Below, one piece after another: positions 2,586-26,133 of a stretch of DNA of 64,000 nt; the first letter of the stretch is position 1; every line of letters starts with the position of its first letter. The notes below the pieces were generated by a model that saw only the letters and a list, made by a program, of their open reading frames with translations, ran no database searches and was not told where the DNA came from. Made by a program: the position numbers and the translations under genes. This DNA is from Balneolaceae bacterium (lineage in GTDB: Bacteria > Bacteroidota > Rhodothermia > Balneolales > Balneolaceae), in NCBI GenBank assembly GCA_009711805.1, contig VEMX01000035.1, positions 1 to 64,000 on the forward strand, given 5' to 3'.

Positions 2586-2860
2586 AGGAAATCAGAACAG
2601 TAACGGAATGGGCGGAAGAGATGGGGTACAGCTGTCCGAAGTATTTTTATCGAAGATTCAAGAAGTATTATGGCGTCCCTCCCAAATCAAAACTTGTTGA
2701 ACTTAGAATTGATAAATTTCATGAAATTATTAGGGATAACCCTCAGGTGAGCTGTTTTGAGATAGGATTTGAGCTTGGTATAGGAGATGAGAACGATTTA
2801 AATAAATACATTAATAGACATACTGACCAACCTCCGACAGAGTGGAAAAATGGGTGGTAA
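2582..2860 (+). pseudogene. AraC-type HTH protein, N-terminally truncated
   Basis: An ATG at 2621 opens 79 codons, but homology to the HTH protein at 17142-17462 begins upstream of it. Codons from about 2588 read EIRTVTEWAEEMGYS, matching EVCTVQEWADVMGFK of the intact gene. The helix-turn-helix continues as FYRRFKKYYGVPP against FSKNFRDHYGVRP, and the tail HTDQPPTEW matches HTGQSPSGI. The first 15-20 codons are missing because the frame is fused to the end of the broken ATPase at about 2575-2587. A product from the ATG at 2621 would lack the first helix of the DNA-binding fold, so it is probably non-functional. It lies upstream of a peptide-propeller pair, as its homologue lies downstream of another. 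Confidence 0.65.
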
Positions 2861-2945
2861 AAACAGGTAGTAAAAGTAGTTGTTGTTGTTGTTTTTCTTT
2901 TTATAGAAAATAATGTTGACCATTTTAACTAAACAATATTTGATT

Positions 2946-3203
2946 ATGAGAAAGCAACTTTTTAAAATTTTAGCAGCTTCTTTTTTGGCTGTTATTCTGG
3001 CTTTGAATTTAACTTCAACTCTTACATTTGAGTCGGGGGGAGAAGATGCTGAAGCCAGATCTATGGATTTAGGCGAGAGTCCTTGCTGGGGAGCAGGGCT
3101 ATCTGTGCTCGGGGGTGAATACACTCGATGTACTACTTGTAAAGTTGAAAAGGGAAAGGTGGGACATGGTCCTTCATCTACATGTACACCTCCTATGGAA
3201 TGA
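2946..3203 (+). CDS. small secreted four-cysteine peptide, NVEALA-like
   Basis: This gene encodes an 85-residue exported peptide precursor. A basic start (MRKQLFK) and a hydrophobic stretch at about 8-28 form a Sec-type signal or leader. The leader ends in GGEDAEA (31-37), where the A-x-A at 35-37 is a plausible signal peptidase I site. The rest carries cysteines 47, 62, 65 and 80, with a CxxC at 62-65. The ATG at 2946 is preferred over 2913 because it gives the usual positively charged leader start. The acidic E-D-A-x-A end resembles the leader of the second peptide (VEEAYA) and, more loosely, the NVEALA family, whose genes sit beside 6-bladed propeller genes in Bacteroidota. A hairpin and then a propeller lipoprotein gene follow. 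Mature form and function are unknown. Confidence 0.65.
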   Translation: MRKQLFKILAASFLAVILALNLTSTLTFESGGEDAEARSMDLGESPCWGAGLSVLGGEYTRCTTCKVEKGKVGHGPSSTCTPPME

Positions 3204-3221
3204 TTAAACTAATAGATAACT

Positions 3222-3245
3222 GGGATGTCAATAAAGTGACATCCC
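3222..3245 (+). terminator. hairpin after peptide gene
   Basis: A perfect 9-bp stem (gggatgtca / tgacatccc) with a 6-nt loop begins 18 nt after the peptide stop codon and ends 25 nt before the propeller start. T-rich sequence follows it. It could act as a partial terminator or 3'-end stabiliser that favours peptide mRNA over the downstream gene. The second peptide locus has a hairpin in exactly the same place. Confidence 0.65.
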
Positions 3246-3270
3246 TTCCATTTATTTTAATATATACACA

Positions 3271-4335
3271 ATGAAGTTTTACTGGTTTCAATTTTTTTTA
3301 GTAATAACTATTATTGGGTGTTCATCCGAAAAAGAGGATAAAAAGGCTGATTTAATTACGGGATTCCCTACCCCTGTTACTATAGATGGAGATCGTATAC
3401 TTGAGCGTGAAACCGGCTTATTGTATCTAAAAAAGATAGACTCATTATTAGTAGTTAGTACTGAGGCTGACACTCTTATTAAGGTATATGATGAAAACGA
3501 AAATTTTGTGAGTGGTTTTGGTAGAATTGGAAGGGGACCAAACGAATTTAGTAGTCCTCCTTTTATTTCAGAAGGTATAATAAAAGGGGATAAAAAATAC
3601 ATATTTGCTTATAATTCACAGCTAAACAAACTAAATGTAATTGATTTAAATAAAACCATTAAATCAAATAAAATAGTCTCATTAAAAGAGTATGAGTTTC
3701 CATCAGATCTTATGGGGGTTTCAAATATTTTCTATGTTAATGAGGATACTTTAATGGGAATGTATAGCGATCACTTCTATAAAAAGTTAGATGGTAAAAA
3801 GGGGGGATTCTATTACTTCCCAAAAACAAAAAAATTTGAAACTTTTGAACTAACAAATTTAACAATCGACCCCTTTAGTACTATTGACGAATCAAATTTG
3901 AACGCAAGATTTCCTATTCTTTCACGTGATCGGAAAACATTTGCGCTTTTAATGAGATACGCTCCCATTTTTGAAATACTTGATGTGGGCTCTAAATCTG
4001 TAAATACTTTTTATATTGAATCATACCCTGAGACTTATGTTTATAGTTTGGAAGCATATAGAGATTTCGAGCTTACTAATTATTATGATTTTGCTTATTC
4101 AGGAGAAAAATATATATACATATTATATAAAGGTAAGCCATTTTCATTAGAGCCGAAAAAGAGTAAGATCCAAGTGCTTGATTGGGATAGAAATCCCATT
4201 GCTGAATATATAGTGCCAAAAGAATATGGACTTAGTCTGTTTGCAGTAGATGAAGATAAAAAGGTATTGTATGGGCTAAGCTACAGAAACGATGCCATTT
4301 ATCGATTTTATTATGGGGATGCAGATGAAAGATAA
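3271..4335 (+). CDS. 6-bladed beta-propeller lipoprotein
   Basis: This is a 354-residue exported lipoprotein. It has a hydrophobic signal peptide followed by the lipobox IIGC (Cys17) and a long beta-strand-rich body. The GRGPNEF motif at 87-93 is the hallmark loop of the Bacteroidota '6-bladed beta-propeller' (TolB/NHL-like) family, and related motifs occur in the proteins at 15422 and 24949. The body shows repeated strand-rich segments as expected of propeller blades. It follows a small cysteine-rich peptide gene and overlaps a membrane thioredoxin-like gene. It may bind or display the peptide at the cell surface, but this rests only on neighbourhood. No catalytic residues are recognisable. 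Confidence 0.8.
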   Translation: MKFYWFQFFLVITIIGCSSEKEDKKADLITGFPTPVTIDGDRILERETGLLYLKKIDSLLVVSTEADTLIKVYDENENFVSGFGRIGRGPNEFSSPPFISEGIIKGDKKYIFAYNSQLNKLNVIDLNKTIKSNKIVSLKEYEFPSDLMGVSNIFYVNEDTLMGMYSDHFYKKLDGKKGGFYYFPKTKKFETFELTNLTIDPFSTIDESNLNARFPILSRDRKTFALLMRYAPIFEILDVGSKSVNTFYIESYPETYVYSLEAYRDFELTNYYDFAYSGEKYIYILYKGKPFSLEPKKSKIQVLDWDRNPIAEYIVPKEYGLSLFAVDEDKKVLYGLSYRNDAIYRFYYGDADER

Positions 4336-4894
4336 AACTTTTGTTTTAATAATTATTCTACTTGGGCTTTTGAATGTATGGTCATTATACACTAACAATC
4401 AAAGACAAGCTCAGATTGATTCTTACAAATCCCAAATTCAAAAAATGAGTCTGTTTGGAAAGGGAACCAATCCAGATTGGGGTTTCGAAAAAGTAGGAAA
4501 AACTCCTGCTAAAATTGTAGCTCCAGAAGTTGATATAAAAAAAGAAGGACTAACGATCTCTATATTTTTTACAGACAGAGGATGTTTGACTTGTGTTGAA
4601 AATGAAGTCAAAAATATAAACCAACTTTTTCAGGATCATACAAGCAAATTGAATGTGTATTTAATGAGTCACAATAAGTCATATTTATCCAGATTGTTTG
4701 GTGCTAAGTTTGTTTACAAAAACTTAGACCCGGAAGTAAAAGTACTTGACAATGATTTTGATTTTGGGAACCCGGTTGTACTTATTACAGATGTAAACGG
4801 ACTTGTTCATCGAATCCACATAGGTGAGAAAGAAAATGTTAAAAAAAGTGATCAGTTTTATAAAGAATTGGATTCATTACTGAGCTCACTATAG
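4325..4894 (+). CDS. membrane-anchored thioredoxin-like protein with CxxC
   Basis: A 189-residue protein with an N-terminal membrane anchor (about residues 6-22), a short coiled linker and a thioredoxin-like periplasmic domain. The sequence ISIFFTDRGCLTC places a CxxC at Cys87/Cys90 directly after a core beta strand, as in TlpA/thioredoxin folds. NPVVLITDVNG later resembles the strand after the cis-proline, with P following N. ATG codons at 4313, 4319 and 4325 are all in frame and overlap the propeller 3' end. The last is chosen because it gives MKDK before the anchor. The overlap implies translational coupling to the propeller. A plausible role is thiol-disulfide handling of the neighbouring four-cysteine peptide, which is an inference. 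Confidence 0.7.
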   Translation: MKDKTFVLIIILLGLLNVWSLYTNNQRQAQIDSYKSQIQKMSLFGKGTNPDWGFEKVGKTPAKIVAPEVDIKKEGLTISIFFTDRGCLTCVENEVKNINQLFQDHTSKLNVYLMSHNKSYLSRLFGAKFVYKNLDPEVKVLDNDFDFGNPVVLITDVNGLVHRIHIGEKENVKKSDQFYKELDSLLSSL

Positions 4895-5066: not shown

Positions 5067-5215
5067 ACCAATGCTCCCCTGCGCTTCTAGCATGTTTAAT
5101 AACTACTCAGCGGTGTGGTTTATGGCTTAACGCTTCACTGCGTTAGCTTCTTCACGCATTCTTTTCTAAGGCCGATGGATGGGTTGGGGAGTGAGAAGTG
5201 AAAAGGCAGAAAAAA

Positions 5216-5299
5216 GTTCAATAAACTATTATTCAGCCGCCCCGCCTTCATCTAAAATAGCTTTCGGAGGGTAGGTTTATATGAAGGTGTTTATTGAAC
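5216..5299. repeat. nested inverted repeat
   Basis: Perfect 11-bp inverted arms gttcaataaac (5216-5226) and gtttattgaac (5289-5299) enclose a second inverted pair, ccttcat (5245-5251) and atgaagg (5281-5287). The 84-bp structure lies in an otherwise empty gap upstream of the toxin-antitoxin pair. It could be a small non-autonomous element or a cruciform. No coding is visible. Confidence 0.5.
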
Positions 5300-5481
5300 A
5301 TTTTGGACTACAAATAACCATAACACATACATTTTAATGAAATTGAGGAATGAATGATATACATTTACGCAGATGAAATGTTTATCGATACTATGCAACC
5401 TCAAGCCAGTGATAAAATTATTTTCCTTTTTATGAGTTTATTACCATACTACAGAAGTATTCAAACTAGTTGAGAAAAGCT

Positions 5482-5706
5482 ATGATCGACGAAAACATCA
5501 AAAAGCAGGCGCTTGAACTTTCGCTTCAGGAACGCGCCGAACTTGCACATATGCTGATCGATAGTCTTCACCCAGAAAAGGAATTCGAATCTGAGGAGGC
5601 CTGGTCAGAAGAACTAAAGAAACGTATTGACCGATATGAACAAGGTAAAAGTTCTACAAAACCTTGGAGTGAAGTAAAAAAAAATGCGCAGTCACTTCTT
5701 GACTGA
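5482..5706 (+). CDS. addiction module antitoxin
   Basis: A 74-residue acidic protein from the ATG at 5482; an in-frame TTG at 5470 is less likely. ALELSLQERAELAHMLIDSL is the conserved N-terminal helix pair of the 'addiction module protein' family (Unstab_antitox), followed by EEAWSEELKKRIDRYEQGK. The family consists of small antitoxins that bind and neutralise ParE/RelE-type toxins and usually repress their own operon. The stop TGA shares its last base with the ATG of the toxin gene, so the two are translationally coupled. An attC-like site follows the pair, and toxin-antitoxin pairs are common passengers of integron cassettes. Confidence 0.85.
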   Translation: MIDENIKKQALELSLQERAELAHMLIDSLHPEKEFESEEAWSEELKKRIDRYEQGKSSTKPWSEVKKNAQSLLD

Positions 5707-6011
5707 TGAGCAAAATGGCCTTTGAACTTGACGATGCGGCAGAGGCCGAGTTTTACGATATCGTTGATTATTACAAACAATTTGATCAGACGCTTTCCTA
5801 CGATTTTATTCAAGAGTTTGAAGATGCTGCTCAGCGACTTATAAAATTCCCCAAAGCAGGCCATCCCTATCTTCATCAGACTAAACGTACTTTTCTGAAT
5901 CGGTTCCCTTATGCAATTGTGTACAAGGTTTACAGGGATGAATTAATCATGGTTTTTGCCATTATGCATATGAAACGAAAACCGGATTATTGGGAAAAGC
6001 GCCTTAAATAA
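5706..6011 (+). CDS. ParE/RelE-superfamily toxin
   Basis: A 101-residue protein with the RelE/ParE pattern: an N-terminal helix (AAEAEFYDIVDYYKQF), LIKFPKAGHPY in the middle, and a C-terminal strand series RTFLNRFPYAIVYKVYRD followed by IMVFAIMHMKRKPDYW. The last motif (H-x-K-R-x-P-x-Y-W) is typical of ParE-like toxins partnered with addiction module antitoxins. Family members act on DNA gyrase or on ribosome-bound mRNA; the target here cannot be read from sequence. The start overlaps the antitoxin stop by one base. Confidence 0.88.
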   Translation: MSKMAFELDDAAEAEFYDIVDYYKQFDQTLSYDFIQEFEDAAQRLIKFPKAGHPYLHQTKRTFLNRFPYAIVYKVYRDELIMVFAIMHMKRKPDYWEKRLK

Positions 6012-13302: not shown

Positions 13303-14215
13303 CCAAAACCATCAGCGCAACTTAGCGGTACATCTGCGAGAAAGGGAAAGTGGGGAAAAGGCTGGAGGGGTTGGTTCGGGCATAGTAATTTCATGCGGAT
13401 TTTCGCGGAGGGGAGCCGGCGGTGTTTGTGGGTCTGATGATTGATATTGAAATTCCTACGCTCATGCCTGCCCATCCACAGAAGTCGATATTCCAAAACC
13501 ATCTGTGCAACTCAGCGGTTCATCTGCGAGCCTCTGCGAGAGAAGGGAAGTTGGGAAAAGGCTGGAGGGGTTGGTTCAGGCATGGTAGTTTCTCGCGGAT
13601 TTTCGCAGAGTAAGGCGCAGAGTTTCGCGGAGGGGAGCCGGGGGTGTTTGTGGGGCTGATGATGGATATTGAAATTTCTACGCTCATGCCTGCCCATCCA
13701 CAGAAGTCGATATTCCAAAACCATCTGCGCAACTCAGCGGTTCATCTGCGGACCTCTGCGAGAGAAGGGAAGTTGGGAAAAGGCTGGAGGGGTTGGTTCA
13801 GGCATGGTAGTTTCTCGCGGATTTTCGCAGAGTAAGGCGCAGAGTTTCGCGGAGGGGAGCCGGGGGTGTTTATGGGTCTGATGATGGATATTGAAATTTC
13901 TACGCTCATGCCTGCCCATCCACAGAAGTCGATATTCCAAAACCATCTGCGCAACTCTGCGGTTCATCTGCGGACCTCTGCGAGAAAGGGAAAGTGGGGG
14001 AAAGGCTGGAGGGGTTGGTTCGGGCATAGTAATTTCACGCAGATTTTCGCGGAGGGGAGCCGGGGGTGTTTGTGGGGCTGATGATGGATATTGAAATTCC
14101 TACGCTCATGCCTGCCCATCCACAGAAGTCGATATTCCAAAACCATCTGTGCAACTCAGCGGTTCATCTGCGGTCCTCTGCGAGAGGAGAGAAGTGGGGA
14201 AAAGGCTGGGGAGGT
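13303..14215. repeat. tandem repeat array, 222-bp unit
   Basis: Units start at 13303 (188 bp), 13491 (222), 13713 (222), 13935 (200) and 14135 (partial). Each contains the phrases ttccaaaaccatctg, caactcagcggttcatctgcg, gaaaaggctggaggggttggtt and ctcatgcctgcccatccaca. Length differences are explained by indels of 22 bp (cagagtaaggcgcagagtttcg) and about 12 bp. The two central units look nearly identical. Because 222 is divisible by three, both strands show repeated open frames, but none has coding character. The array lies between rpoN and the second peptide locus. Confidence 0.9.
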
Positions 14216-14601
14216 TAATATGCCGCAGGCATGTCTTGGGCAGTGTATTAGTTAATGAGAGATTGAATGAAAAGGTAAAGGTGAAAGGGGCAGGCGCTAA
14301 CTAAAGATATGCGAGATCAACATTAGATCCCGAAACACATCAGTCCTCGGTTTTGGTTGTAGAGTAAAGGTTAGAAAAATGGGACAGTTGATGCTCTCTT
14401 CTGTGAACTGGCATGCATATTCCTTGAGCTAATCTTGAATGACTTGGGAGAATAAAAATCACGGTATATCGGAACTGCAAGCAGGTTTGGGAAAAATTCG
14501 ATACAAAAATTCGATAGTAAAATTAGATAGTGAAAGTGTTTGCATGTGTTTTTGGGAATGGAAAGATTTCTTCAGAGTTAGAATTAACGAAGAAACAAGT
14601 T
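14216..14601. other. intergenic region upstream of peptide locus B
   Basis: The 386 bp between the tandem repeat and the MauE-like gene turn A+T-rich from about 14250. In-frame GTG codons at 14530 and short frames from 14439 are open, but they give residues unlike any protein I know. This stretch should contain the promoter of the peptide operon; no clear box was found. Confidence 0.3.
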
Positions 14602-15042
14602 ATGGGTGGTGTGAAACTAAGTCGGTATTTCCGTTGGATAATAGCTGGGGTATTATTTGTAGCTGGAGTCTTGAAGATAATAGATCCTGGTAACCTTGTT
14701 GAAGTGATACTATTCTTTGATTTTTTAAGCGAATCATACGCGTATGTTTTTGTTTATTCAATTTGTGCTTTTGAAATTACTTTGGCTTTTTTGTTGGTGA
14801 AAAATTATAAGCCAAAAATGTTGGGGGTAACCGTATTCGGGTTATGTACTCTGTTTTTTCTTATCTCTTTATTTGGCTTTTACAATAATTGGGAAGTTGC
14901 ATGCGGTTGCTTGGGAAGGTTTTCTTTTGGTTCATTTGATAAGTCAATGATAACAAGAAACTTTACACTTTTTCTGATGGCAGGATGGGTTCTGTATAAT
15001 TCAGGAAAAGCAAAAGTAAAACTCCAAAAGGAGGATAATTAA
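14602..15042 (+). CDS. MauE/DoxX-like redox-associated membrane protein
   Basis: A 146-residue protein with four predicted membrane helices. Helix 1 ends in AGVLKIIDPG, the family signature in which a Lys and an Asp-Pro follow the first helix. After the third helix comes VACGCLGRF, with Cys101 and Cys103 in the C-G-C-x-G motif typical of MauE-like proteins. Relatives are thought to supply or accept electrons for thiol-disulfide exchange in the periplasm. The ATG at 14602 is preferred over a GTG at 14530, which adds 24 residues without helix character. It is the first gene of a cluster with a cysteine-rich peptide, propeller and signal peptidase, so a role in oxidising or reducing the peptide is likely but inferred. 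Confidence 0.75.
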   Translation: MGGVKLSRYFRWIIAGVLFVAGVLKIIDPGNLVEVILFFDFLSESYAYVFVYSICAFEITLAFLLVKNYKPKMLGVTVFGLCTLFFLISLFGFYNNWEVACGCLGRFSFGSFDKSMITRNFTLFLMAGWVLYNSGKAKVKLQKEDN

Positions 15043-15068
15043 CCCTAAATAAACAAATGGTGAATACT

Positions 15069-15356
15069 ATGTCGATCAAAAAGTATATAAATAATTTTGT
15101 AGCAATTCTGGCTGTTGTCACTCTTGTAAGTGGCTTTCAGATATCCGATTCTCAGGGAATTGTTCAAAGCTTAGAAACAACAATTGGTGTAGAGGAAGCT
15201 TATGCGGGGCCTTGTGGGCGAAGAGGGTGTGATGGTACAGCAGTCTATTGTACTTCATATGTTGTGCTTGAAATTGGCAATACACGATGGATACGAGATT
15301 GTGAAGGAGTCATTCAAGATGATGATGGCGATGGACCTGGTGTAGATCCGGAGTAA
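15069..15356 (+). CDS. small secreted four-cysteine peptide, NVEALA-like
   Basis: A 95-residue precursor, with an alternative ATG at 15057 that would add four residues. A basic start (MSIKKY) and a hydrophobic helix (about 10-25) form the leader, which ends in GVEEAYA (40-46). A-Y-A is a good signal peptidase I site, and VEEAYA resembles the NVEALA signature. The mature part has Cys49, 54, 61 and 78 and an acidic tail rich in Asp and Gly. The peptide at 2946 likewise has four cysteines after an E-[DE]-A-x-A leader end, although the mature sequences are otherwise unlike. It is followed by a hairpin, a propeller gene and a signal peptidase gene that could process it. Confidence 0.65.
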   Translation: MSIKKYINNFVAILAVVTLVSGFQISDSQGIVQSLETTIGVEEAYAGPCGRRGCDGTAVYCTSYVVLEIGNTRWIRDCEGVIQDDDGDGPGVDPE

Positions 15357-15374
15357 CTAACAAATATATTTAAA

Positions 15375-15407
15375 AACAGGTCTGAGTATTTACTACTTAG
15401 ACCTGTT
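15375..15407 (+). terminator. strong hairpin after peptide gene
   Basis: A 14-bp stem with one mismatch (aacaggtctgagta, 15375-15388; tacttagacctgtt, 15394-15407) closes a 5-nt loop. It starts 18 nt after the peptide stop, the same distance as the hairpin at 3222, and ends 14 nt before the propeller start. No T run follows, so it is better suited to attenuation or mRNA 3'-end protection than to full termination. Confidence 0.65.
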
Positions 15408-15421
15408 AAATATTCTATATT

Positions 15422-16435
15422 ATGCCTAAAAATATAAAATCAGTACTACTATTTATTATCTTTTTTCTGATATGTAACAGCAAAGCTTTTTCTCAAAGTC
15501 GGGTTTTTAAAGATGTCGAACTTCAGGTTGAAGAGGAGATGGTGTTATCTGATCATGAGATATTTCTTCCAATGTTATTAGATATAAATCGAAAAGGGGA
15601 AATTATTTTCTTTGATTTCGCGGAGTATAATATAGTTTCTGTAAATATGGATGATTTTAAGTTTAAATTATTCGGTAAAGGTAAGGGGAGAGGTCCAGGA
15701 GAATTTAGCATGGTTATGGATCTAAGAATAAGTGATTCAGATGATATTCTCTTTGCTGATCCACGTAAACGAAAATTAATCGAATGGAATCTTGAAAGTG
15801 GGTTTAAAAAGGAATATAAATTAGAGAATAAGCATGTGATCCCTTCTCGAATCGTTGTCTGTGAAAATTCCGGGGCTGTTTATGTACTCTCTTCCAGGTA
15901 TGGGAAATCGGGTATTTTTCATAAGTATAGCAGAAACATTAAGCATATGGTTTCATTTCAAGAAAAAGCTAAGCGTTTTGAGAAGCAGCTTCCATTTTAT
16001 ACTGATGGAGAAATTAGTTGTGATAAAGATGGAAATCTTTTTTACGCAGCAAAATATGCCAATATTATCAGGAAGTATGATGGAAAAGGTACGTTAATAT
16101 TTGAAACCCCGGTATATGATTTTGAGCCAAATGAAGAGGTTATACAACGAAATGGTAATTTTTTTGACTTAGCAGATGGAGTGAGAAGAGCAAGTGGGGA
16201 TACTCGAATTGTAGATGATAATCTTATTGTAGGCCATTCGGGAAGAGAAGATGCTAAATTGGAATTATTGGATGTGTATTCTACAAAGGATGCAACGTAT
16301 AGATATTCGATTAAAATGCCTCATACATTCCAGGAATTTGTAATGTACAAAGACTATATAGTTGTATTGCGTGAGGATGGCCAAGGGGAGATACGGTTGA
16401 CGATATACAAGCACGATATTACAGAACTATTTTGA
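15422..16435 (+). CDS. 6-bladed beta-propeller protein, exported
   Basis: A 337-residue protein with a signal peptide (MPKNIKSVLL and a hydrophobic core, cleavage probably after AFS near residue 24) and no lipobox. The loop GRGPGEF at 89-95 identifies the 6-bladed beta-propeller family. Repeating strand pairs such as GEIIFFDFAEYN, DDILFADPRKRK and GNLFYAAKYAN mark the blades. The 3' end overlaps the next gene by 4 nt (TTGA), so it is co-translated with the signal peptidase. It may bind the secreted peptide or a surface ligand; that is guesswork from context. Confidence 0.8.
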   Translation: MPKNIKSVLLFIIFFLICNSKAFSQSRVFKDVELQVEEEMVLSDHEIFLPMLLDINRKGEIIFFDFAEYNIVSVNMDDFKFKLFGKGKGRGPGEFSMVMDLRISDSDDILFADPRKRKLIEWNLESGFKKEYKLENKHVIPSRIVVCENSGAVYVLSSRYGKSGIFHKYSRNIKHMVSFQEKAKRFEKQLPFYTDGEISCDKDGNLFYAAKYANIIRKYDGKGTLIFETPVYDFEPNEEVIQRNGNFFDLADGVRRASGDTRIVDDNLIVGHSGREDAKLELLDVYSTKDATYRYSIKMPHTFQEFVMYKDYIVVLREDGQGEIRLTIYKHDITELF

Positions 16436-16989
16436 AGCAATATGTAGCCTATGCCGTGATAATAATAGGAGCAGTGCTGCTTATTATACTTATTGTAAGA
16501 GTCTCTATATACAAAGTACAGACAAATTCAATGGCGGAAGAGATTACAGCAGGTAATTATATCATTGTGCTTAAAACAAATCGGAGTACTAATTTTTCAG
16601 CAAAGGAAATCATTGCTTTTGAAAAAGATGGTACAATTTTTATTAAACGCTTGGCAGCATTACCGGAAGATACCGTATATGGAATTGGGAATGAGATGTT
16701 GATAAACTCGATTAACTATCCTCTCGATTCCGTTACTCTTATGCTGCCTGGGGTAAGTGAAGATGGATATATAGTTTCAAATTGGGTGCCTTACTTTAAA
16801 TATTTGTTCAAAAAAACATCTGAGTCTCTGTATAATTCGAACAAGAATCTAATAAAGGAATCACTTTTTATTGTTCCAACGAATTATTTTTTCGTAATTG
16901 GGGATAATTATTTCGAAAGCATGGATAGCCGATTTTGGGGATTTGTTCACAAAGATCAGATCATTGGAAAGGTAATTACTGTTTTTTAG
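16432..16989 (+). CDS. signal peptidase I (S26 family), cluster-specific
   Basis: A 185-residue S26 peptidase from a TTG start that overlaps the propeller stop. One N-terminal membrane helix (about 5-24) precedes the catalytic Ser of TNSM (Ser33). The general base Lys72 lies in FIKRLAALPED, which is box D-like, and the C-terminal GDNYFESMDSRFWGFV carries the conserved G-D-N-x(3)-S-x-D-S-R-x-W-G box. All catalytic features are present, yet the enzyme is small and has a single anchor. Its position in a peptide-propeller operon suggests a dedicated processor of the peptide leader rather than the housekeeping enzyme. Confidence 0.85.
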   Translation: MKQYVAYAVIIIGAVLLIILIVRVSIYKVQTNSMAEEITAGNYIIVLKTNRSTNFSAKEIIAFEKDGTIFIKRLAALPEDTVYGIGNEMLINSINYPLDSVTLMLPGVSEDGYIVSNWVPYFKYLFKKTSESLYNSNKNLIKESLFIVPTNYFFVIGDNYFESMDSRFWGFVHKDQIIGKVITVF

Positions 16990-17141
16990 GGGTTTCATTT
17001 GCCTGTTTACATTTTTTTTCGTTTTATAGAGGAGCGATGATTGCAGTACCAGCACCTGTTAGCACATCATCATAGGGAAAACGTTGGTTACAGCTTAGGG
17101 TTAATGAGAAAAAGAAACATTAACACCTAAATTATCGATCT

Positions 17142-17462
17142 ATGAGTTTACCAATAGAAAAGGCTGTTGAAGTTGTAAAACAGAACCTCAGCGAGGTATG
17201 TACGGTACAAGAATGGGCAGATGTGATGGGGTTCAAAAGTTCACGTCAATTTTCAAAAAATTTTCGCGATCATTATGGGGTAAGACCGTCCAAAAAAATA
17301 ACTCAGATTAAAATTGAGCGAGTTAAAATGCTCATCAATGAGAGCGAAGAAGTAAAACATTTTATTATCGCTAACGAAATCGGCCTTCCCGATGAACAAG
17401 CCCTCTACAAATTTATGAAGTATCACACGGGTCAAAGCCCTTCTGGTATACGGCAGGTTTAA
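17142..17462 (+). CDS. AraC-type HTH domain protein
   Basis: A 106-residue protein that is essentially one AraC/XylS-type DNA-binding domain: CTVQEWADVMGFKSSRQFSKNF forms the first helix-turn-helix, followed by DHYGVRPSK. The second half (EEVKHFIIANEIGLPDEQAL, HTGQSP) corresponds to the second HTH and has drifted. There is no ligand-binding domain. It lies 152 bp after the signal peptidase gene and 109 bp before the RND operon, and could regulate either. A truncated homologue sits at 2582-2860 beside the other peptide locus, which favours a link to the peptide system. Confidence 0.75.
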   Translation: MSLPIEKAVEVVKQNLSEVCTVQEWADVMGFKSSRQFSKNFRDHYGVRPSKKITQIKIERVKMLINESEEVKHFIIANEIGLPDEQALYKFMKYHTGQSPSGIRQV

Positions 17463-17571: not shown

Positions 17572-20500
17572 TTGCTACTTAAAAAACCAATAGCTTCCAT
17601 CATATTAGTACTGGCAGTCCTTATTTTCGGGGGAATTGCTCTTGAACGTTTATCCATAGAGTTGATGCCGGATATCGCACGGCCCACGCTCATGGTAAAA
17701 ACCGGCTATAGCGGGGCTCCGGCATCCGAGGTCGAGTTCAGGGTAACGGAGCCCCTGGAACAGGTAATGAGTTCGGTTCGGGGTGTTAAAGAAGTAAGGG
17801 GGCTTTCACGCCAGGGACAAAGCCTTATTTTTCTGACCTTCGAATGGGGGTTCGATATGGATATCGCTTTCCTGAATGTGAGGGAAGAACTCGATAAGGT
17901 AAGCGCCCGGATTCCCGAGCAGGCTGAACGGCCAAAGCTGGTGTATTCCTCTGCATCCGATGAGCCAATCGCGACCATAGGGTTGAGATTGGCTAAAGTA
18001 TCAAACCAGGAATTTTCGAATCGTTTGTCGTTGAAGCGGTGGGCCGAGCAAGTGTTTACCCGCAGACTGGAGCAACAGGATGGGATTGCACAAGCCATGT
18101 TGGTGGGAGAAGTGTCGCCAGAGGTGCAAATTCGTTTTAATCCCCGCTTGCTCGATCGATACAACTTGTCTATTGCGGATGTACAAAATAGAGTAGAAGC
18201 AGCCAATGTATTTGCATCAACGGGGGAGCTTAGGGATGGCTGGTACCGGTATTCATTGAAAATACAAAGCCGCATCCAGTCGATGGATCATATCCGGAAT
18301 ATTCCGGTTACTTCTTTGGCTAATGGCCGCGTACTCACCCTTAATGAACTTGCTGATGTAGTAATGGCTGAAGCGGATCCTACTTCCTTTGCTTTACTGG
18401 ATGGGGAAGAGGTGCTTAATGTATTGGTGAAAAAAGAGTACGGAGCTAACACGGTTGAAGTATTCAAAACATTGAGTACAACACTGGGCGAAGTTCGCGA
18501 GCAGAACCCGGATATTGATATTGAAGTAATTCAGGAGGATGCCAGCTATATTGAGAATTCAATATCCAACCTGCTGCAAACACTTATTATAGGTGGTATT
18601 CTTGCCTTTACCGTACTCTTCTTTTTTCTGGATGATATGCGAAGTCCGTTTACTATCGGGATCTCCATTCCGGTAAGTATCTTCCTGACTTTCGTGGCTA
18701 TGTACCTTTTTGATATTCAGTTAAATATTATTTCGCTAAGTGGACTTACCCTGGGGATTGGCTTGTTGTTGGATAATGCCATTGTGGTGCTGGAAAATAT
18801 TAACCGCTATCGGCAAAAAGGACTGGGGCGACTGGAGGCTGCACGGGAGGGAACCAAAGAAATCAGCCTGGCGGTAACAGCTTCAACGTTTACAACTATA
18901 TCGGTATTTCTGCCCCTGATATTTCTTGGTGGATTTGAAGGAGCTTTCTTCCGTGACCTGGCAGCTACATTGTCGTTTAGTTTACTCTCCTCACTCTTGG
19001 TTGCCCTGCTTATATTACCCGTGTTTGTAGCTCATTTCAGCAAAAAGAATAACAGCCGGGGATTTTTGAGTAAAATTTCGGATGGTTTGGATTTTGTTAT
19101 TCGAAAGTATGAGCAGAACCTGGCTAAAGCAATTAAGAAACCCATACCTATGCTGGGTATTGCCACTGTATTACTGCTGTTGGCAGCTTGGGCTTTTATG
19201 ACCATCCCCAAAGGGATATTACCGGCAGATGAACCTTCTTCCGTTGATTACCTGGTTACCATGCCTGGGAATACTTCCCTGAGATCATCCAAAAGCGCAG
19301 CTACCGAGCTTTCGAATGTGGTAAAACAGGAGATGGGGGAACGCAATATACTATCACTCGGGGGATATACTGATAACAGTAATCTTGAATCCATCACTAA
19401 TGAGGGGCTTAACAAATTTACGATCTCCATTCCTGTAAATGGTTTTGACGAAGCTGAAAAAGCAGAAGAAATAATGGAGAGGCTGGCCGAAACTTATACT
19501 TTGTGGAATTTCAGCAAGAATGATGAAGGCGGTTTTGGAAGTTTCGGCGTTTCGGAAGAAGCACCGGTGCAGTTAAGTATTGTGGGTACAGACCGGGAAC
19601 TGAGTAAACGGGTTGGAGTAAAGCTTCGCGAATATCTTGCGGGGGATTTTACGGATTTAAGCTTCAGAGAGAAATACCCGCAGCGTATACAGGCATACCA
19701 AATCAGGTATAAATCGGATGAGCTGCTGGCCTATGAACTGCCAGAGCGAACCGTTACCCATTATCTTGAATCATTAACTCGCGGGGCACTTGTCACCGAC
19801 TGGAACCGGCAGGATGAACAGATTTCGGTTCGTATGATTGGAGAACGAAGCCGTTCTGTTGATCCAAAAGAAATCAGTTTTCCATACAAAGATAAGATTA
19901 TTCCCCTTGCTAACATTGCCGACATTACACTGGTTGAAGAAGCGGAACAGCTCGAACGTAAAGGTCAGTCACCCATATTGACATACAGTACCAGCCTGAG
20001 TTTCTTCGACTGGTGGTGGTACGGCGGTGAACTTAAAAGCCGGGTCAACCAATTCATGCAAAAAACCGGTTACGAGGTTAAAATAGGAGGCACTGCCCTG
20101 CAGGTAATAGAATTGCTCACCGACCTTGGTTTGTTGCTGTTAATCAGTGTATTGCTGATATACTTGATTCTGGCCATTCAGTACGAAAATCTCAAGTACC
20201 CTTTTATAATTATTCTGGCTATTCCTTTTGCGTGGGTTGGCTCTGTTTATGCGCTCTACCTTGGAGGTGTGAGCCTGAATTCACTTTCTTTTATGGGAAT
20301 ACTAATCCTTACAGGAATTGCGGTTAATGATTCTATTCTTAAAGTTGACTTCATGCGTCGCTATTACGAAGAAACAGGAAATTTAAATGAATCAATTAAG
20401 CAGGCTGGAATTAACCGGTTCCGCCCTGTGGTAATGACCAGTTTAACAACCATTCTCGGGCTTATTCCCATGTTAGTGCCTTTTGGGGATGGATACATAT

Positions 20501-20625
20501 TCAGAAAATCGCTGGCTATCGCTCTTATGGGGGGCATGGTAACCAGTACCTTATTGACGCTCTACATAATCCCACTCGTTTTTAAATTGATTGAGGGGCG
20601 AAAAAGAAAAACAGTATCAAAATGA
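17572..20625 (+). CDS. RND efflux transporter permease
   Basis: A 1017-residue inner-membrane RND pump subunit with the classical duplicated layout: one helix, a large periplasmic domain, helices 2-6, then the same again. IELMPDIARPTL, the porter segment EPLEQVMSSVRGVKEV and the TM4 segment LGIGLLLDNAIVVLENI carry family signatures; TM10 has GIAVNDSILKVDF. The start is a TTG at 17572, because no ATG is available after the upstream stop at 17557. The stop overlaps the start of the adaptor gene (ATGA). RND pumps use the proton gradient to move drugs, lipids or other substrates. No outer-membrane TolC-like gene is present. Confidence 0.93.
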   Translation: MLLKKPIASIILVLAVLIFGGIALERLSIELMPDIARPTLMVKTGYSGAPASEVEFRVTEPLEQVMSSVRGVKEVRGLSRQGQSLIFLTFEWGFDMDIAFLNVREELDKVSARIPEQAERPKLVYSSASDEPIATIGLRLAKVSNQEFSNRLSLKRWAEQVFTRRLEQQDGIAQAMLVGEVSPEVQIRFNPRLLDRYNLSIADVQNRVEAANVFASTGELRDGWYRYSLKIQSRIQSMDHIRNIPVTSLANGRVLTLNELADVVMAEADPTSFALLDGEEVLNVLVKKEYGANTVEVFKTLSTTLGEVREQNPDIDIEVIQEDASYIENSISNLLQTLIIGGILAFTVLFFFLDDMRSPFTIGISIPVSIFLTFVAMYLFDIQLNIISLSGLTLGIGLLLDNAIVVLENINRYRQKGLGRLEAAREGTKEISLAVTASTFTTISVFLPLIFLGGFEGAFFRDLAATLSFSLLSSLLVALLILPVFVAHFSKKNNSRGFLSKISDGLDFVIRKYEQNLAKAIKKPIPMLGIATVLLLLAAWAFMTIPKGILPADEPSSVDYLVTMPGNTSLRSSKSAATELSNVVKQEMGERNILSLGGYTDNSNLESITNEGLNKFTISIPVNGFDEAEKAEEIMERLAETYTLWNFSKNDEGGFGSFGVSEEAPVQLSIVGTDRELSKRVGVKLREYLAGDFTDLSFREKYPQRIQAYQIRYKSDELLAYELPERTVTHYLESLTRGALVTDWNRQDEQISVRMIGERSRSVDPKEISFPYKDKIIPLANIADITLVEEAEQLERKGQSPILTYSTSLSFFDWWWYGGELKSRVNQFMQKTGYEVKIGGTALQVIELLTDLGLLLLISVLLIYLILAIQYENLKYPFIIILAIPFAWVGSVYALYLGGVSLNSLSFMGILILTGIAVNDSILKVDFMRRYYEETGNLNESIKQAGINRFRPVVMTSLTTILGLIPMLVPFGDGYIFRKSLAIALMGGMVTSTLLTLYIIPLVFKLIEGRKRKTVSK

Positions 20626-21731
20626 GACTTATGAAAACATTGTCTTTAACCCGATTTTTAGTTCTGTTCTTAATGGTGGTTACCGGGCTGGTATTTAGTT
20701 CCTGTAAGCCGGCTGAAGAAGAAACCCCGGAACCCCCGGATGAAGAAAGTATCGACATACGCCCGGAAGTGGTATTTGATGTAGCAACAGATGAACCCTT
20801 ACAGTTTTATATAGAGAGCCGGGGAGTCGCTGAGCCTCAGCGCAGGACCAAAATTATTGCCCGCATAGGCGGTGTTGTTGAAGAGCACAATATCGAAGAA
20901 GGCCTCAGGGTACAGAAAGGAGATTTGCTTTTACAGCTGGAGGATGAAGAGCATACGTATGATCTTGAGAAAGCCCGTACCGAATTTCTGCAAGCAAAAG
21001 ATGAATATGAAAGAAAGCTTCGGTCACAAAGAAGTACCGGGGTTGAAATTAATAATCAAACCGATGAGCTCACAAAAATTAACTCGGGATATGCCCACGC
21101 CAAAGTTGATTACGATCGGGCCAAGCTCAATTACAGCTATACCAGGGTAACAGCACCTTTCGGAGGTGTACTTTCTCTCCGGGAAGCGGTAAAGAATAAC
21201 ATGTTTATATCGGAAGGCTCGTATATATCGGCAGGACGTGAATTGGCAACCTTGATAGACGACCGGACAGTAAACATAAGGTTTGAAGTGCTGGAGGCTG
21301 AAGTCCCTAATTTGGAGGTGGGAATGTCAGTACAACTCACTGATCCCAATGACCATACTTATGAAGGTACCATAGTAGCGGTTTCCCCCGAGATAGATTC
21401 CGATACCAAAACAGGACAAGTGTTGATTGAAGTAGACAACCCGGATGGAGCCATAAAAACAGGTATGACACTTGAAGGACGAATTTTTATACGAAGTGTG
21501 AAAAGTAAAGTGAAAATGCCCCGCGAAGCCCTGCTGGAAAGAGATGGGCGGACGCTGGTATTCAAACTAAACGGCGACGAGGCACAATGGATATATGTAA
21601 CTCCGGTAGATATGAATACCGAATGGGTGCTGATCGATCATGAAGAGATAAATCCAGGAGATACCCTGGCGGTAGATCAGCACTTTAGCATTAGCCACCA
21701 GCAGAAGATAGTGCCATTATTGGTTGACTAA
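20622..21731 (+). CDS. RND periplasmic adaptor (membrane fusion protein)
   Basis: A 369-residue HlyD/AcrA-like adaptor lipoprotein: the signal peptide ends in FSSC, then comes a Glu/Pro-rich linker. The biotinyl-lipoyl half-motif ARIGGVVEEHNIEEGLRVQK, a coiled-coil hairpin (YDLEKARTEFLQAKDEYERK to AKVDYDRAKLNYSYT) and the second half RVTAPFGGVLSLREAVKNN follow, then beta-barrel and membrane-proximal domains. It bridges the RND permeases to an outer-membrane channel encoded elsewhere. The 4-nt overlap with the upstream permease stop supports the ATG at 20622; an in-frame ATG at 20631 is an alternative. Confidence 0.93.
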   Translation: MRLMKTLSLTRFLVLFLMVVTGLVFSSCKPAEEETPEPPDEESIDIRPEVVFDVATDEPLQFYIESRGVAEPQRRTKIIARIGGVVEEHNIEEGLRVQKGDLLLQLEDEEHTYDLEKARTEFLQAKDEYERKLRSQRSTGVEINNQTDELTKINSGYAHAKVDYDRAKLNYSYTRVTAPFGGVLSLREAVKNNMFISEGSYISAGRELATLIDDRTVNIRFEVLEAEVPNLEVGMSVQLTDPNDHTYEGTIVAVSPEIDSDTKTGQVLIEVDNPDGAIKTGMTLEGRIFIRSVKSKVKMPREALLERDGRTLVFKLNGDEAQWIYVTPVDMNTEWVLIDHEEINPGDTLAVDQHFSISHQQKIVPLLVD

Positions 21732-21781
21732 GTTAACATCTCTCTGGCTGCTGTTTTGTCAATCTAATCCTTAAATCCACT

Positions 21782-24700
21782 ATGAAAGAACTCTTTCGGC
21801 GACGATACCTCATTTCTTTCTTTTATATCATTATATGTGTGATTGGGATATCGGTGTGGCAGCTTATACCTATAGAAAACACACCCGATCTTCGTAAGCC
21901 GGTGGTAACGGTTAGCTACTCATGGGGAAGCACTTCTCCGGAAGTGATGGAGCAGGAGGTAACCCGGAAGGTAGAACGTGAAGCCAATCGGCTCAGGGAT
22001 GTAGAAAAAATACGCTCAGTTACCAACGAGGGGCGATCGAGTGTAACTATCACATTCTATAAAGATGCCCCGGTAGACTACCGGGTACTCGAACTCAGAG
22101 AATATTTGTTAAGCCTGGATGAAACCCTTCCCGAAGGCATTCGCCCGCCTTCTATTAGCCGGCAGGTTCCCAAAGAACTCGAAGACCAGCAAACGTTTAT
22201 TGTTTACAGCCTGAATGCGGATTTGGCTCCCCGTGCATTGTTGGAATATACCCGTAACCGAATAGTGCCAAAGTTATTGGGAATAGAAGGTCTTGCCGAT
22301 GTGGATATACAGGGGGTATTGGATCCCGCACTTATCATCGAGTTTGACAAGGGGGAATTGGAGAAGTACAATTTAAATCCTACATCAATCCTGGCTGAAG
22401 TCAGTGGGAATTTACGATGGAATTCTTCAGGTTATGTGGATCAGGGAGATTCGAGATATAGCTTAATCCTGCCCCCAACCTATAAAACCACCGCCGATAT
22501 TGCCAAGCAAGCCATCCAAATACCAAATTCCAAACTACAGCTTACGCTGGATGATATAGCTGATATCTCGATAGGGGATACACCTGCAAGAAGCATCAAA
22601 CGGATTAATGGCGACCCTGCACTTACCATTAATTTTGTAAAGGAGTCGGGAGCTGATGCTTTTACACTTGCCCGGGCTATCCACCAGCAGATGGGAGAAA
22701 TTAAAGCCCAGCTCCCTGAAAAAATGGTTCTGAGAATGACGGTGGATAGTTCGGAAGAACTCAGGGAGCAGTTCGAAAGCCTCCAATATCAGGCAATGAT
22801 AAGTGCGGTATTGGTATTTCTGGTAGTCATTTTGTTTGTGTGGAGACTCAGGGCTCCCGTGATCATTATTGGCAGCGTAGCCTTCTCTATACTTCTGAGT
22901 GTAATTGTGTTATACCTGATTGGCTATAGCCTGAATATGATTACCCTGGCTGGTTTAACTATAGCCCTGGGTATGCTTATTGATAATGCCGTAGTAGTTT
23001 TTGAGCACCTGAACCCGAAGCTGCCTTCAAGCCGGGATGAGCGTCTTGAGCATGTACGGCAACAGCTTCCTAAGGCAGTAGTTCCGGTATTGGGTAGTAC
23101 ATTCACCACAGTAGGAATTTTTGTACCCTTGTTGTTTGCCATGGAAGAACTCCGCATTTTCCTGCTTCCGCTGGCCGTGGCTTTAACCATTACCTTGGCA
23201 TCTTCTGTAATAATAGCCTTCAGCTGGATACCCTATTCGCTGATATGGTTGACTTCCCTGAAACAGAAACAAAGAGTTATAAAACGGATCCCCCGGTTTT
23301 TAAACCGGCTGTTGCTGCACTCATTTAAATGGAAGGCTCGCTTAAAATGGCTGATGATTCCTGCGGTGATCCTTGCCGTCGGTATTCCCCTATTTGCCAT
23401 AGAAGAACCGGAATGGGATAATGAAGAAGAACCAACCAACTGGCCGGAGTTCACTAAAATATATTTTGAAAACCGGGATAATATTGATCCCTGGGTAGGA
23501 GGGTTGACCAACAAATTTTTTAATGAAACCTATTTTGGGAGCCCCTGGAAAAGGAGTATTACTGAAACAATATATGTAAGTTTAAGGGCCCCTCAGGGAA
23601 CCCCATTGTCTGAAATAAATAAGGTGGCTAAAAACTTTGAGACGATAGCCAAACCCTATGAGCATGCGTTTGAGTATTACGAGGTTAATATGTCGGAGAC
23701 GTATGGAGCAAGGATGCAGTTTGTAGTAAAACCGGAATACCTGTTTGAGTATGCACCCTATCAATACTTTGGAGAAGCCTCTTTTTTGGGAGCTCGTACA
23801 GGAAATTTGGTTACATCAGTTTCTGGGTTTGGGCAAGGGAATACATTTGGAAGCCTGGGGGGAGGATATTCGCAGCATAGCATTCGCCTGTACGGCTATT
23901 CTTATGATGAATTGTTGGGACTGGCAAAAGAATTGGAACGCAGATTAAAGAAAAGCAGAAGAGTGCGCGAGGTAGACATAAATAAAGGATATGGATACAG
24001 AAGTCGGGGAGATTTTCGCCAGTATGTGATGAAAATGGATGATGAGCGATTGTTAGCCAAAAACCTGGATCGGGGAAAAGTGCTTTCCAGAATGCAGCTC
24101 GATTTAAGGTCCCAAACCAACCAGGGAAAAGTGGAATTTGGGGGACAGGAGATGTTTCTGTTGGGGAAAACGGATGATGGGCGTTCATACCAGGAAGATG
24201 TACTTAACAAAGTTCGGGAGTTTGGTGATGTGAAGTTTAATGTAGCTGCCATAGGCGAGGTAGTAAAAGAAAAAGGATTAACAAGTATAATCCGGGACAA
24301 TCAGCAATACCAGCGTATAGTAGCAGTGGATTACCTGGGTAATTACCGGATGGCTTCAAATTATATTGATGAGGTCTTGGAACGAACGCCCGTGCCGGTA
24401 GGAACATCCATAAAATATGGAGGAGGGTTTTTTAGTTTTGGGAATGAAGATAAAACCCGCAATATCTGGTTTATATCACTGCTAAGCTTATTAAGTGTAT
24501 GGATGATTGTTTCGGCTTTATTGGAGAGCTGGAAGTACCCTATGTTTGTGATTATGGCGGTACCTTACAGTGCTCTGGGTATTATGATGGGAGTACTGGT
24601 AAACGACATGGCTTTTGATAAGGGAGCCATTGCCGGAGCATTATTATCTATTGGGGTAGTGGTAAACAACGCTATTTTGCTTTACCACCAGAAACAACTC

Positions 24701-24934
24701 GAAAATGGCAGAGGTATTTTTGGCCTGCGCTGCTGGATGTATGTGTATAAAAAGAGACTGCGAGCCATACTCATTACCACCTCTACTACTATAACCGGCT
24801 TGTTGCCTATGATGCTCTTTGGAACCAATGAATTCTGGGAAAACCTGGCTATTGTAGTTATCTGGGGGCTTAGTGCAAGTACCATTTTATTGTTGTTGAT
24901 GACGGGGGTCCGAATCATAAAGCAAGAACAATAA
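21782..24934 (+). CDS. second RND efflux permease
   Basis: A 1050-residue RND transporter clearly different from the first permease. The N-terminus reads YLISFFYIIICVIGISVWQL, and the porter segment IENTPDLRKPVVTVSYSW is typical of RND pumps. TM4 has LTIALGMLIDNAVVVFEHL, with the central Asp/Asn pair. The second half has SYSALGIMMGVL-type helices and GVVVNNAILLYHQ in TM10. Starting 50 bp after the adaptor, it likely forms a heteromeric pump with the upstream permease, as known for MdtBC-like systems; that assignment is inferred from gene order. Confidence 0.92.
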   Translation: MKELFRRRYLISFFYIIICVIGISVWQLIPIENTPDLRKPVVTVSYSWGSTSPEVMEQEVTRKVEREANRLRDVEKIRSVTNEGRSSVTITFYKDAPVDYRVLELREYLLSLDETLPEGIRPPSISRQVPKELEDQQTFIVYSLNADLAPRALLEYTRNRIVPKLLGIEGLADVDIQGVLDPALIIEFDKGELEKYNLNPTSILAEVSGNLRWNSSGYVDQGDSRYSLILPPTYKTTADIAKQAIQIPNSKLQLTLDDIADISIGDTPARSIKRINGDPALTINFVKESGADAFTLARAIHQQMGEIKAQLPEKMVLRMTVDSSEELREQFESLQYQAMISAVLVFLVVILFVWRLRAPVIIIGSVAFSILLSVIVLYLIGYSLNMITLAGLTIALGMLIDNAVVVFEHLNPKLPSSRDERLEHVRQQLPKAVVPVLGSTFTTVGIFVPLLFAMEELRIFLLPLAVALTITLASSVIIAFSWIPYSLIWLTSLKQKQRVIKRIPRFLNRLLLHSFKWKARLKWLMIPAVILAVGIPLFAIEEPEWDNEEEPTNWPEFTKIYFENRDNIDPWVGGLTNKFFNETYFGSPWKRSITETIYVSLRAPQGTPLSEINKVAKNFETIAKPYEHAFEYYEVNMSETYGARMQFVVKPEYLFEYAPYQYFGEASFLGARTGNLVTSVSGFGQGNTFGSLGGGYSQHSIRLYGYSYDELLGLAKELERRLKKSRRVREVDINKGYGYRSRGDFRQYVMKMDDERLLAKNLDRGKVLSRMQLDLRSQTNQGKVEFGGQEMFLLGKTDDGRSYQEDVLNKVREFGDVKFNVAAIGEVVKEKGLTSIIRDNQQYQRIVAVDYLGNYRMASNYIDEVLERTPVPVGTSIKYGGGFFSFGNEDKTRNIWFISLLSLLSVWMIVSALLESWKYPMFVIMAVPYSALGIMMGVLVNDMAFDKGAIAGALLSIGVVVNNAILLYHQKQLENGRGIFGLRCWMYVYKKRLRAILITTSTTITGLLPMMLFGTNEFWENLAIVVIWGLSASTILLLLMTGVRIIKQEQ

Positions 24935-24948
24935 AATATCAGAACAAA

Positions 24949-26133
24949 ATGTATATTTTTTCTAACTTTTTTTTTGTAGTCACTGGAATCTTAGTCGCAA
25001 CATTATCACAGGTGAGGGTACAAGCCCAAGAACCAACAAATATACATTTTGAGGAAATACTGACTTTAGGGGATGATGAACGGGCTCCACTGAAATATCA
25101 GTTTGCTGGTCCGGGAGCTATAGATACCGATGATGCCGGGAATATTTATATAGCCGGAACCAATAACACTATCCGGGTGTTTACGGCCCAGGGAGTTTAT
25201 AAAGCCACAATGGGTGGCAGGGGGAGAGGTCCAGACGAGTTTCTTGATATAACTGCTTTTGCTGTTATTGGTGAAGGAGCTGTGGCAATCAATGATAGTC
25301 GTCTACTTAGAATAACTCTTTTTTATCATTTTGGAGACAGCAGCGTTACTCATGCACTTCCAAAGAGTTGGAATAGCAGGATAGGGAATAGACGGGTACA
25401 GAAGAATATTGTACCACTTGACGATCAAACCTATGCTATTTCATCCAAAGTACGAGATGTGTACTTTGATCGCCCGGCAAGTGAGTTAGACAACCGAGTG
25501 GTACATGTGATAAATTATGACTTTTCTACCTTTAAACGATCTTATTTTGATGTATATGAGTACCTCTTTGATCCACAGAAGAAGTTGGAGCGAAAGCTGG
25601 CCACAGATTGGGACTATCGATTAGCTAAATTAGAAGATAAGAAGGTTGCTATAACCCATGAAGTATTTGATGGGAATGTCTATATCATAGATTTGTCGTC
25701 TACTGATGGTAGTATTAAAAAAGTCCCCGGCAGTTTTACAGGTAAGGAACGATATCTGGAATTAGATACAAATAAAAAGTACCGTAAAAATAAATACTAT
25801 AGGGTAACAAGATCTGGTGGGGTGTTAGGAAAATTCAGGTTCCAAAAAAAACTAATGTCAGATGCCTTATTATCCAATGAAAAATGGTTACTCAATTTTG
25901 TTAGTGTAAATGAGGGCAATAAAGGACAGTATTATATTGAGTTTTATACCTTAGAAGGGGAGTATAAGGGCCATACTCAAATTGACGATGATTTTGTGAT
26001 CCAGGAGGGAATGCGTACACGATTTTTCCCCAAGCATTTGGATGATGATAATAACCTCTATTATGTAGATTATTCCAGTGGAATACCTGTTGTGAAAGTT
26101 GCCAAAATAATTCTGGATAATGGATTGAATTAG
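24949..26133 (+). CDS. 6-bladed beta-propeller protein at the end of the RND operon
   Basis: A 394-residue exported protein: a signal peptide with probable cleavage after VQA (near residue 26), then a propeller with IDTDDAGNIYIAG and the family loop GRGPDEF at 92-98. It has no lipobox. It begins 14 bp after the second permease stop, so it belongs to the same transcript. There is no peptide gene next to it, unlike the two other propeller genes. It might be a periplasmic or outer-membrane accessory of the pump or a third member of the peptide-sensing family; sequence does not decide. Confidence 0.8.
   Translation: MYIFSNFFFVVTGILVATLSQVRVQAQEPTNIHFEEILTLGDDERAPLKYQFAGPGAIDTDDAGNIYIAGTNNTIRVFTAQGVYKATMGGRGRGPDEFLDITAFAVIGEGAVAINDSRLLRITLFYHFGDSSVTHALPKSWNSRIGNRRVQKNIVPLDDQTYAISSKVRDVYFDRPASELDNRVVHVINYDFSTFKRSYFDVYEYLFDPQKKLERKLATDWDYRLAKLEDKKVAITHEVFDGNVYIIDLSSTDGSIKKVPGSFTGKERYLELDTNKKYRKNKYYRVTRSGGVLGKFRFQKKLMSDALLSNEKWLLNFVSVNEGNKGQYYIEFYTLEGEYKGHTQIDDDFVIQEGMRTRFFPKHLDDDNNLYYVDYSSGIPVVKVAKIILDNGLN

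Follow-up and report, generated by a model that had tools for sequence, protein, structure and literature searches.

A four-cysteine peptide cassette with its own type I signal peptidase beside a paired RND pump in a Balneolaceae bacterium

We analysed a 64,000-nucleotide stretch of DNA from a Balneolaceae bacterium (contig VEMX01000035.1, positions 1 to 64,000; hereafter the window), with a focus on a cassette at 14602-17462 of the + strand, locus B, which encodes in order a MauE-like membrane protein, a four-Cys peptide precursor, a beta-propeller, a type I signal peptidase of family S26 and an AraC-type helix-turn-helix (HTH) protein. All five open reading frames (ORFs) were found where a preliminary description, made from the sequence alone, had placed five co-directional genes. 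The MauE-like protein (14602-15042), which carries a CGC-L-G motif (C101, C103), was assigned by PF07291 (E 2.6e-15; 57.3 bits against a cut-off of 27), and in an alignment with eight relatives the CGC and 13 other positions were invariant. The propeller (15422-16435) gave no Pfam match, so that the PF17170 cut-off was not reached; its AlphaFold2 model (predicted local distance difference test [pLDDT] 87.3, predicted template modelling score 0.84) matched six-bladed NHL domains in Foldseek with E 4e-10, and we therefore describe it as a predicted secreted six-bladed NHL-type beta-propeller beside the peptide. The PF17170 cut-off was reached by the relatives L058 and L059 and by the window propeller at 24949-26133. 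The HTH protein (17142-17462; PF12833, 6.3e-11) is a stand-alone AraC-type DNA-binding protein without a sensor domain, and because the cassette also lacks a visible sensor kinase or receptor domain, the sensing role proposed for it earlier is unsupported.

Next we searched 92 genomes of the family for propellers and compared gene order in the neighbourhoods retrieved. The order MauE-peptide-propeller-S26 was found in the window and in L035, L039, L040, L042, L043 and L047, and the order HTH-peptide-propeller-thioredoxin-S26 in L036 and L037. Because the order thus recurs in eight other species (six of the MauE type and two of the thioredoxin type), the cassette is more than a chance arrangement. 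The invariant CGC, together with the replacement of MauE by CxxC thioredoxin-like proteins in the sister cassettes, makes the earlier proposal of disulfide handling a reasonable one, and we regard the MauE-like protein as a putative periplasmic thiol/disulfide partner. The HTH gene stands first, upstream of MauE, in most relatives, and between S26 and the RND pump (resistance-nodulation-division; see below) in the window and L039; its membership in the cassette is less sure because of this difference in position. In the window, the interval from rpoN to the cassette, which houses the HTH gene in relatives, is filled by a tandem array (13401-14216) with ∼2.9 copies of a 222-bp unit and a shorter variant that are 92-95% alike. 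When a wider contig collection was scanned, the S26 gave no match and MauE matched only Balneolaceae metagenome-assembled genomes.

The peptide precursor ORF spans 15057-15356 (99 codons), and the true start is likely the ATG at 15069 (MSIKKY...), which matches the MKIKNY... of relatives. A hydrophobic anchor (15096-15137) is followed by a 23-aa spacer and a predicted cleavage point after A50 (15206/15207), placed by alignment and spacing. The leader ends, as described earlier, in VEEAYA, with GPC directly after it, and the only Cys residues (53, 58, 65 and 82) all lie beyond that site. The predicted mature peptide, GPCGRRGCDGTAVYCTSYVVLEIGNTRWIRDCEGVIQDDDGDGPGVDPE, would thus comprise 49 aa with 4 Cys (15207-15353). 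Across nine species A50, G51, P52, C53, G57, C58, G60, C65, V70 and C82 were invariant (AGPC....GC.G....C...V...C). Leader and mature part of these GPC peptides are equally conserved, with 35% mean identity each. A reading of AGPC as a lipoprotein signal was ruled out, as the sequence has no lipobox, and the AlphaFold2 model of the peptide (pLDDT 51) was too low for use. In nine Balneolaceae peptides the distance from the hydrophobic core to the cleavage site is 23-32 residues. The usual distance for signal peptidase substrates is 3-7 residues.

The signal peptidase (16432-16989) begins at a TTG that overlaps the propeller TGA, confirming the 4-nt overlap noted before. It scored 86.8 bits with PF10502 (2.1e-24; cut-off 22.9) and 98.9 bits with TIGR02227 (2.7e-28; cut-off 47), and Ser33 and Lys72, named in the preliminary description, are present: the dyad and the GDN..S.DSR box (S33, K72, D158, N159, S163, D165, S166 and R167) are invariant among 11 sequences. 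The NCBIfam models for dedicated S26 enzymes all stayed below their curated cut-offs (SipW 14.9/190, Ni-SOD 37.8/63.25, TraF 29.7/100.25). The enzyme is not the only S26 of its genome, which holds three: a housekeeping enzyme (C64, 367 aa) and two small S26, both in peptide-propeller loci, the other one (C63; L059) being flanked by a Cys-rich peptide gene on one side and a propeller gene on the other. In the S26 tree, housekeeping enzymes fall on one side (89/94), the locus B enzyme lies outside this LepB group, the seven enzymes of MauE-type cassettes form one group (92/93) and the two of thioredoxin-type cassettes group with L094. Across 89 Balneolaceae genomes we counted 16 extra S26 genes, 12 of them in peptide-propeller loci (nine in cassettes and three elsewhere, L059, L094 and L095); three more lie on conjugative-type elements, as judged from their neighbours (L096-L098), and one is isolated (L093). 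These results support the view that the S26 is private to the peptide cassette rather than a housekeeping enzyme. Hence, although the preliminary description as a whole is only partly supported, its central claim, that the peptide comes with a signal peptidase of its own, holds.

Presence of the enzyme is also tied to that of the site. In the same 89 genomes, an intact peptide was accompanied by an extra S26 in nine of nine cases, and all nine peptides carry the motif [AV][YF]A-GPC. Two genomes, G037 and G091, keep the mature GPC domain beside a propeller, yet have the housekeeping S26 only, and in them EAYA-GPC is replaced by TGRMGPC and FWGPGPC; cleavage site and extra S26 are thus kept or lost together (9/9 versus 0/2, Fisher p 0.018 in a small set). 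We considered that the S26 might instead be a general extra signal peptidase, with the housekeeping enzyme cutting the peptide. A-x-A is indeed a generic type I site, and the peptide loci A (2621-4894), L044, L046 and L058 have no S26 of their own; against this, the 4-nt overlap suggests translational coupling, the co-occurrence is complete, the site is lost where the enzyme is absent, and the spacer is far longer than is usual. We therefore regard a general role as unlikely. Processing of the peptide by its private S26 is, on the sequence evidence, the well supported inference. The presence of an own S26 does not strictly track long leader spacers, as several long-spacer peptides are without one.

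Pairing of propellers with Cys-rich peptides extends beyond the cassette. Propeller homologues adjoin such peptides, and 40 of 169 distinct propellers were preceded on the same strand, at a distance of no more than 500 bp, by a Cys-rich secreted short ORF, compared with 3 of 425 control genes (p 2e-20); the mature parts of these ORFs are of many unrelated kinds. Within the window, sister locus A (+ strand) comprises an AraC-type HTH gene (2621-2860), a Cys-rich peptide with a DAEA-RS-like site (2913-3203), a propeller lipoprotein (3271-4335) and a CxxC thioredoxin-like protein (4292-4894).

Directly downstream of locus B, on the same strand, lies an RND operon (17572-26133), with the S26 gene ending 0.6 kb and the HTH gene 0.1 kb upstream of it. 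It encodes the RND1 permease (17572-20625; PF00873), which linkage and tree mark as the hub of the peptide-propeller loci, a periplasmic adaptor of the membrane fusion protein type (20622-21731; PF16576, 8e-24), the partner permease RND2 (21782-24934; PF00873, 2e-119) and, directly behind RND2, a second secreted propeller (24949-26133), which reached the PF17170 cut-off with 22.9 bits and matched the propeller profile; a reading of this last gene as TolC was wrong. An RND1 orthologue was found in 38 of the 89 Balneolaceae genomes. In 35 of these 38, propellers (116 in all) lay within 9 kb of RND1, compared with none in the 20 lepB (housekeeping S26) loci used as controls. Further, at least four propellers per genome were present in 37 of 38 genomes with RND1 and in 8 of 51 without it (Fisher 5.5e-16; genus-stratified permutation 0/10,000), counts that are lower bounds where no more than 23 candidates were scored, as in this genome. 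The sole exception with RND1, G015, has a broken RND1 gene with a GPC peptide remnant fused in frame (L091, ∼5200-6000) and almost no propellers left. The cassette is thus part of a multi-locus system with the RND pump as its hub, and the earlier picture of a self-contained unit was wrong.

A similar arrangement is seen around NVEALA peptides (PF14055), which the locus B peptide resembles in the layout of its leader, with a hydrophobic anchor followed by a spacer, A-x-A and Cys. True NVEALA members were found in two other Bacteroidota genomes, G424 and G506, where the arrays hold propellers (PF17170, PF15869), S26 enzymes of 295-296 aa and CxxC thioredoxin-like proteins, and where S26 enzymes beyond the tandem housekeeping pair occur only in these arrays (3/3). 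An operon of adaptor, RND1, outer-membrane factor (OEP) and RND2 adjoins two of the arrays. In an RND tree, which also covered eight further RND proteins from the genome of the window and replaced an ambiguous single-query reciprocal search, the two array permeases were each sister to their Balneolaceae counterpart (RND1 100/95, RND2 100/100). The distance from core to site in ten NVEALA peptides was 20-25 residues, and exactly 25 in nine. Comparison of the Balneolaceae and NVEALA peptide profiles gave a probability of 79% (E 1.6e-5), which is suggestive, though not proof, of homology. Membership of the peptide in NVEALA by profile was rejected, and the weak matches L075 and L076 were unrelated genes. 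Overall, locus B and the NVEALA arrays have in common a Lys-rich start, an anchor, a ∼25-aa spacer, an A-x-A-like site, a short Cys-containing mature part, an adjoining propeller, a private S26 and a linked, orthologous RND1/RND2 pair; locus B differs in its EAYA-GPC site, in having MauE rather than a thioredoxin-like protein, in the lack of an OEP gene in the operon and in the presence of the HTH gene. Beside S26 and pump, the NVEALA arrays L179, L181-L183 and L185 also contain large uncharacterized proteins and proteins of the O-antigen-ligase/TPR type. In B. thetaiotaomicron, BT0662 (O-antigen ligase), BT0664 (6-bladed propeller), BT0667 (lepB) and BT0669 (RND adaptor) lie close together (PMC10434189), a listing that fits the NVEALA/RND architecture and provides a lead.

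The linkage to RND1 could also arise if the pump had no part in peptide export and if cassettes in lateral transfer simply tended to insert into the gaps of the operon and into the space between rpoN and the RND genes. The neighbours on the rpoN and RND sides do vary, cassettes sit in several operon gaps, and L036 and the own-genome loci C4, C9, C17, C25 and C63 lie elsewhere. However, the co-occurrence of propellers and RND1 holds genome-wide and is not bound to a site, orthologues of both permeases accompany NVEALA arrays in a second class, and loss of the cassette in G015 accompanies decay of RND1, which together make such preferred insertion an improbable explanation.

We consider it fairly probable, from these comparisons of genes and genomes, that locus B is a maturation cassette of a Bacteroidota-wide, multi-copy, RND-linked system for peptide maturation and export. 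The precursor would be inserted by Sec via its N-terminal hydrophobic anchor, and the cassette S26 would cut AYA|GPC ∼23 residues beyond the anchor, releasing the four-Cys peptide to the periplasm. There, MauE, or the CxxC thioredoxin-like protein of sister cassettes, may manage the disulfides of the peptide, and the paired six-bladed propeller may bind it as an escort or as an immunity or receptor partner; the adjacent RND1-MFP-RND2 pump would export the mature form. The leading options for its activity are a toxin with immunity and a kin or community signal. More tentatively, the loci could represent an undescribed Bacteroidota system, with up to >20 copies per genome, in which families of hypervariable disulfide peptides have an anchor-spacer-A-x-A leader in common, are cut by dedicated S26 enzymes, have a cognate propeller each (immunity/receptor) and leave the cell through a paired RND pump dedicated to them. 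That the peptide is instead never exported but acts together with the propeller, in a periplasmic or structural role such as that of a redox or stress component, is the least probable of the alternatives: the propeller lacks TonB or adhesin parts, MauE/thioredoxin genes adjoin, the AraC-type regulator has no sensor and the GPC peptides conserve mature part and leader alike, but the hypervariable mature parts behind conserved leaders in NVEALA arrays (13% versus 39% mean identity) and the many paralogues per genome fit exported effectors better.

Several observations weigh against the proposed system. Three-quarters of the propellers had no upstream Cys-rich ORF under the filter used, and the PF14055 cut-off was reached neither by the locus B peptide nor by the tested Balneolaceae relatives, nor by any peptide of the own genome. 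The S26 genes of peptide loci are not one clade; several peptide-propeller loci, locus A among them, have none, so that the housekeeping enzyme must serve those; and in L043 (6430-6520) two stop codons closely preceding the catalytic Ser break the S26 frame. The two genomes that lost the site are represented by assemblies only 89-91% complete. The Balneolaceae RND operons have no outer-membrane factor, which is present in the NVEALA arrays, and a common site of insertion could account for the RND linkage, although this linkage is found in two classes. The L043 peptide, for its part, has the most deviant site (TVYA-GPC), and decay or an assembly error would explain the state of the L043 locus.

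Known systems resemble locus B in part. SipW, the Ni-SOD maturation protease and TraF are likewise extra S26 enzymes encoded with their substrate, which in locus B is a Cys-rich peptide. SdpABC-type peptide toxins have a membrane-anchored precursor cut by signal peptidase, a disulfide-bonded peptide and helper membrane proteins. These features are also predicted for locus B; in contrast, no SdpA/B/I homologue was seen in locus B, which stands in a Gram-negative setting with an RND pump and propellers. MacAB-TolC and ABC peptide exporters also serve small-peptide export, whereas the pump linked to locus B is a paired RND of the HAE type. Exporter genes of the former kinds do lie near sister loci: L094/L189 (G010), an S26-bearing peptide locus outside the RND hub, is near MacAB/TolC-like genes, and in G004 (L109, 16945-19835) an ABC exporter with an HlyD-like partner lies inside a peptide-propeller island. 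In open-licence PubMed Central text, we found no description of this gene combination and no paper on NVEALA or on the function of the adjoining propellers. That NVEALA peptides are linked, across two classes, to a private S26, to redox helper proteins and to orthologous RND permeases provides a concrete, testable route of maturation and export, and opens new search ground for bacterial signals or antimicrobial peptides among Bacteroidota from gut and marine habitats.

Among the other loci, L095/L190 (G036), a further S26-bearing peptide locus outside the RND hub, is near a long run of FtsX-type permeases. A fusion of VKOR and thioredoxin lies inside a peptide-propeller island in L040 (1454-3058) and L049 (3503-5122); the L040 protein had been considered a C39 peptidase, a reading dropped after Pfam identified VKOR and thioredoxin. 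An Rfam search of the window gave no match. Elsewhere in the window, a gene of the AAA_13 family (PF13166; 944-2585) appears to be broken up into three frames and is probably a pseudogene, and a toxin-antitoxin pair (5470-6011) consists of a PF09720 antitoxin and a PF05016 ParE toxin.
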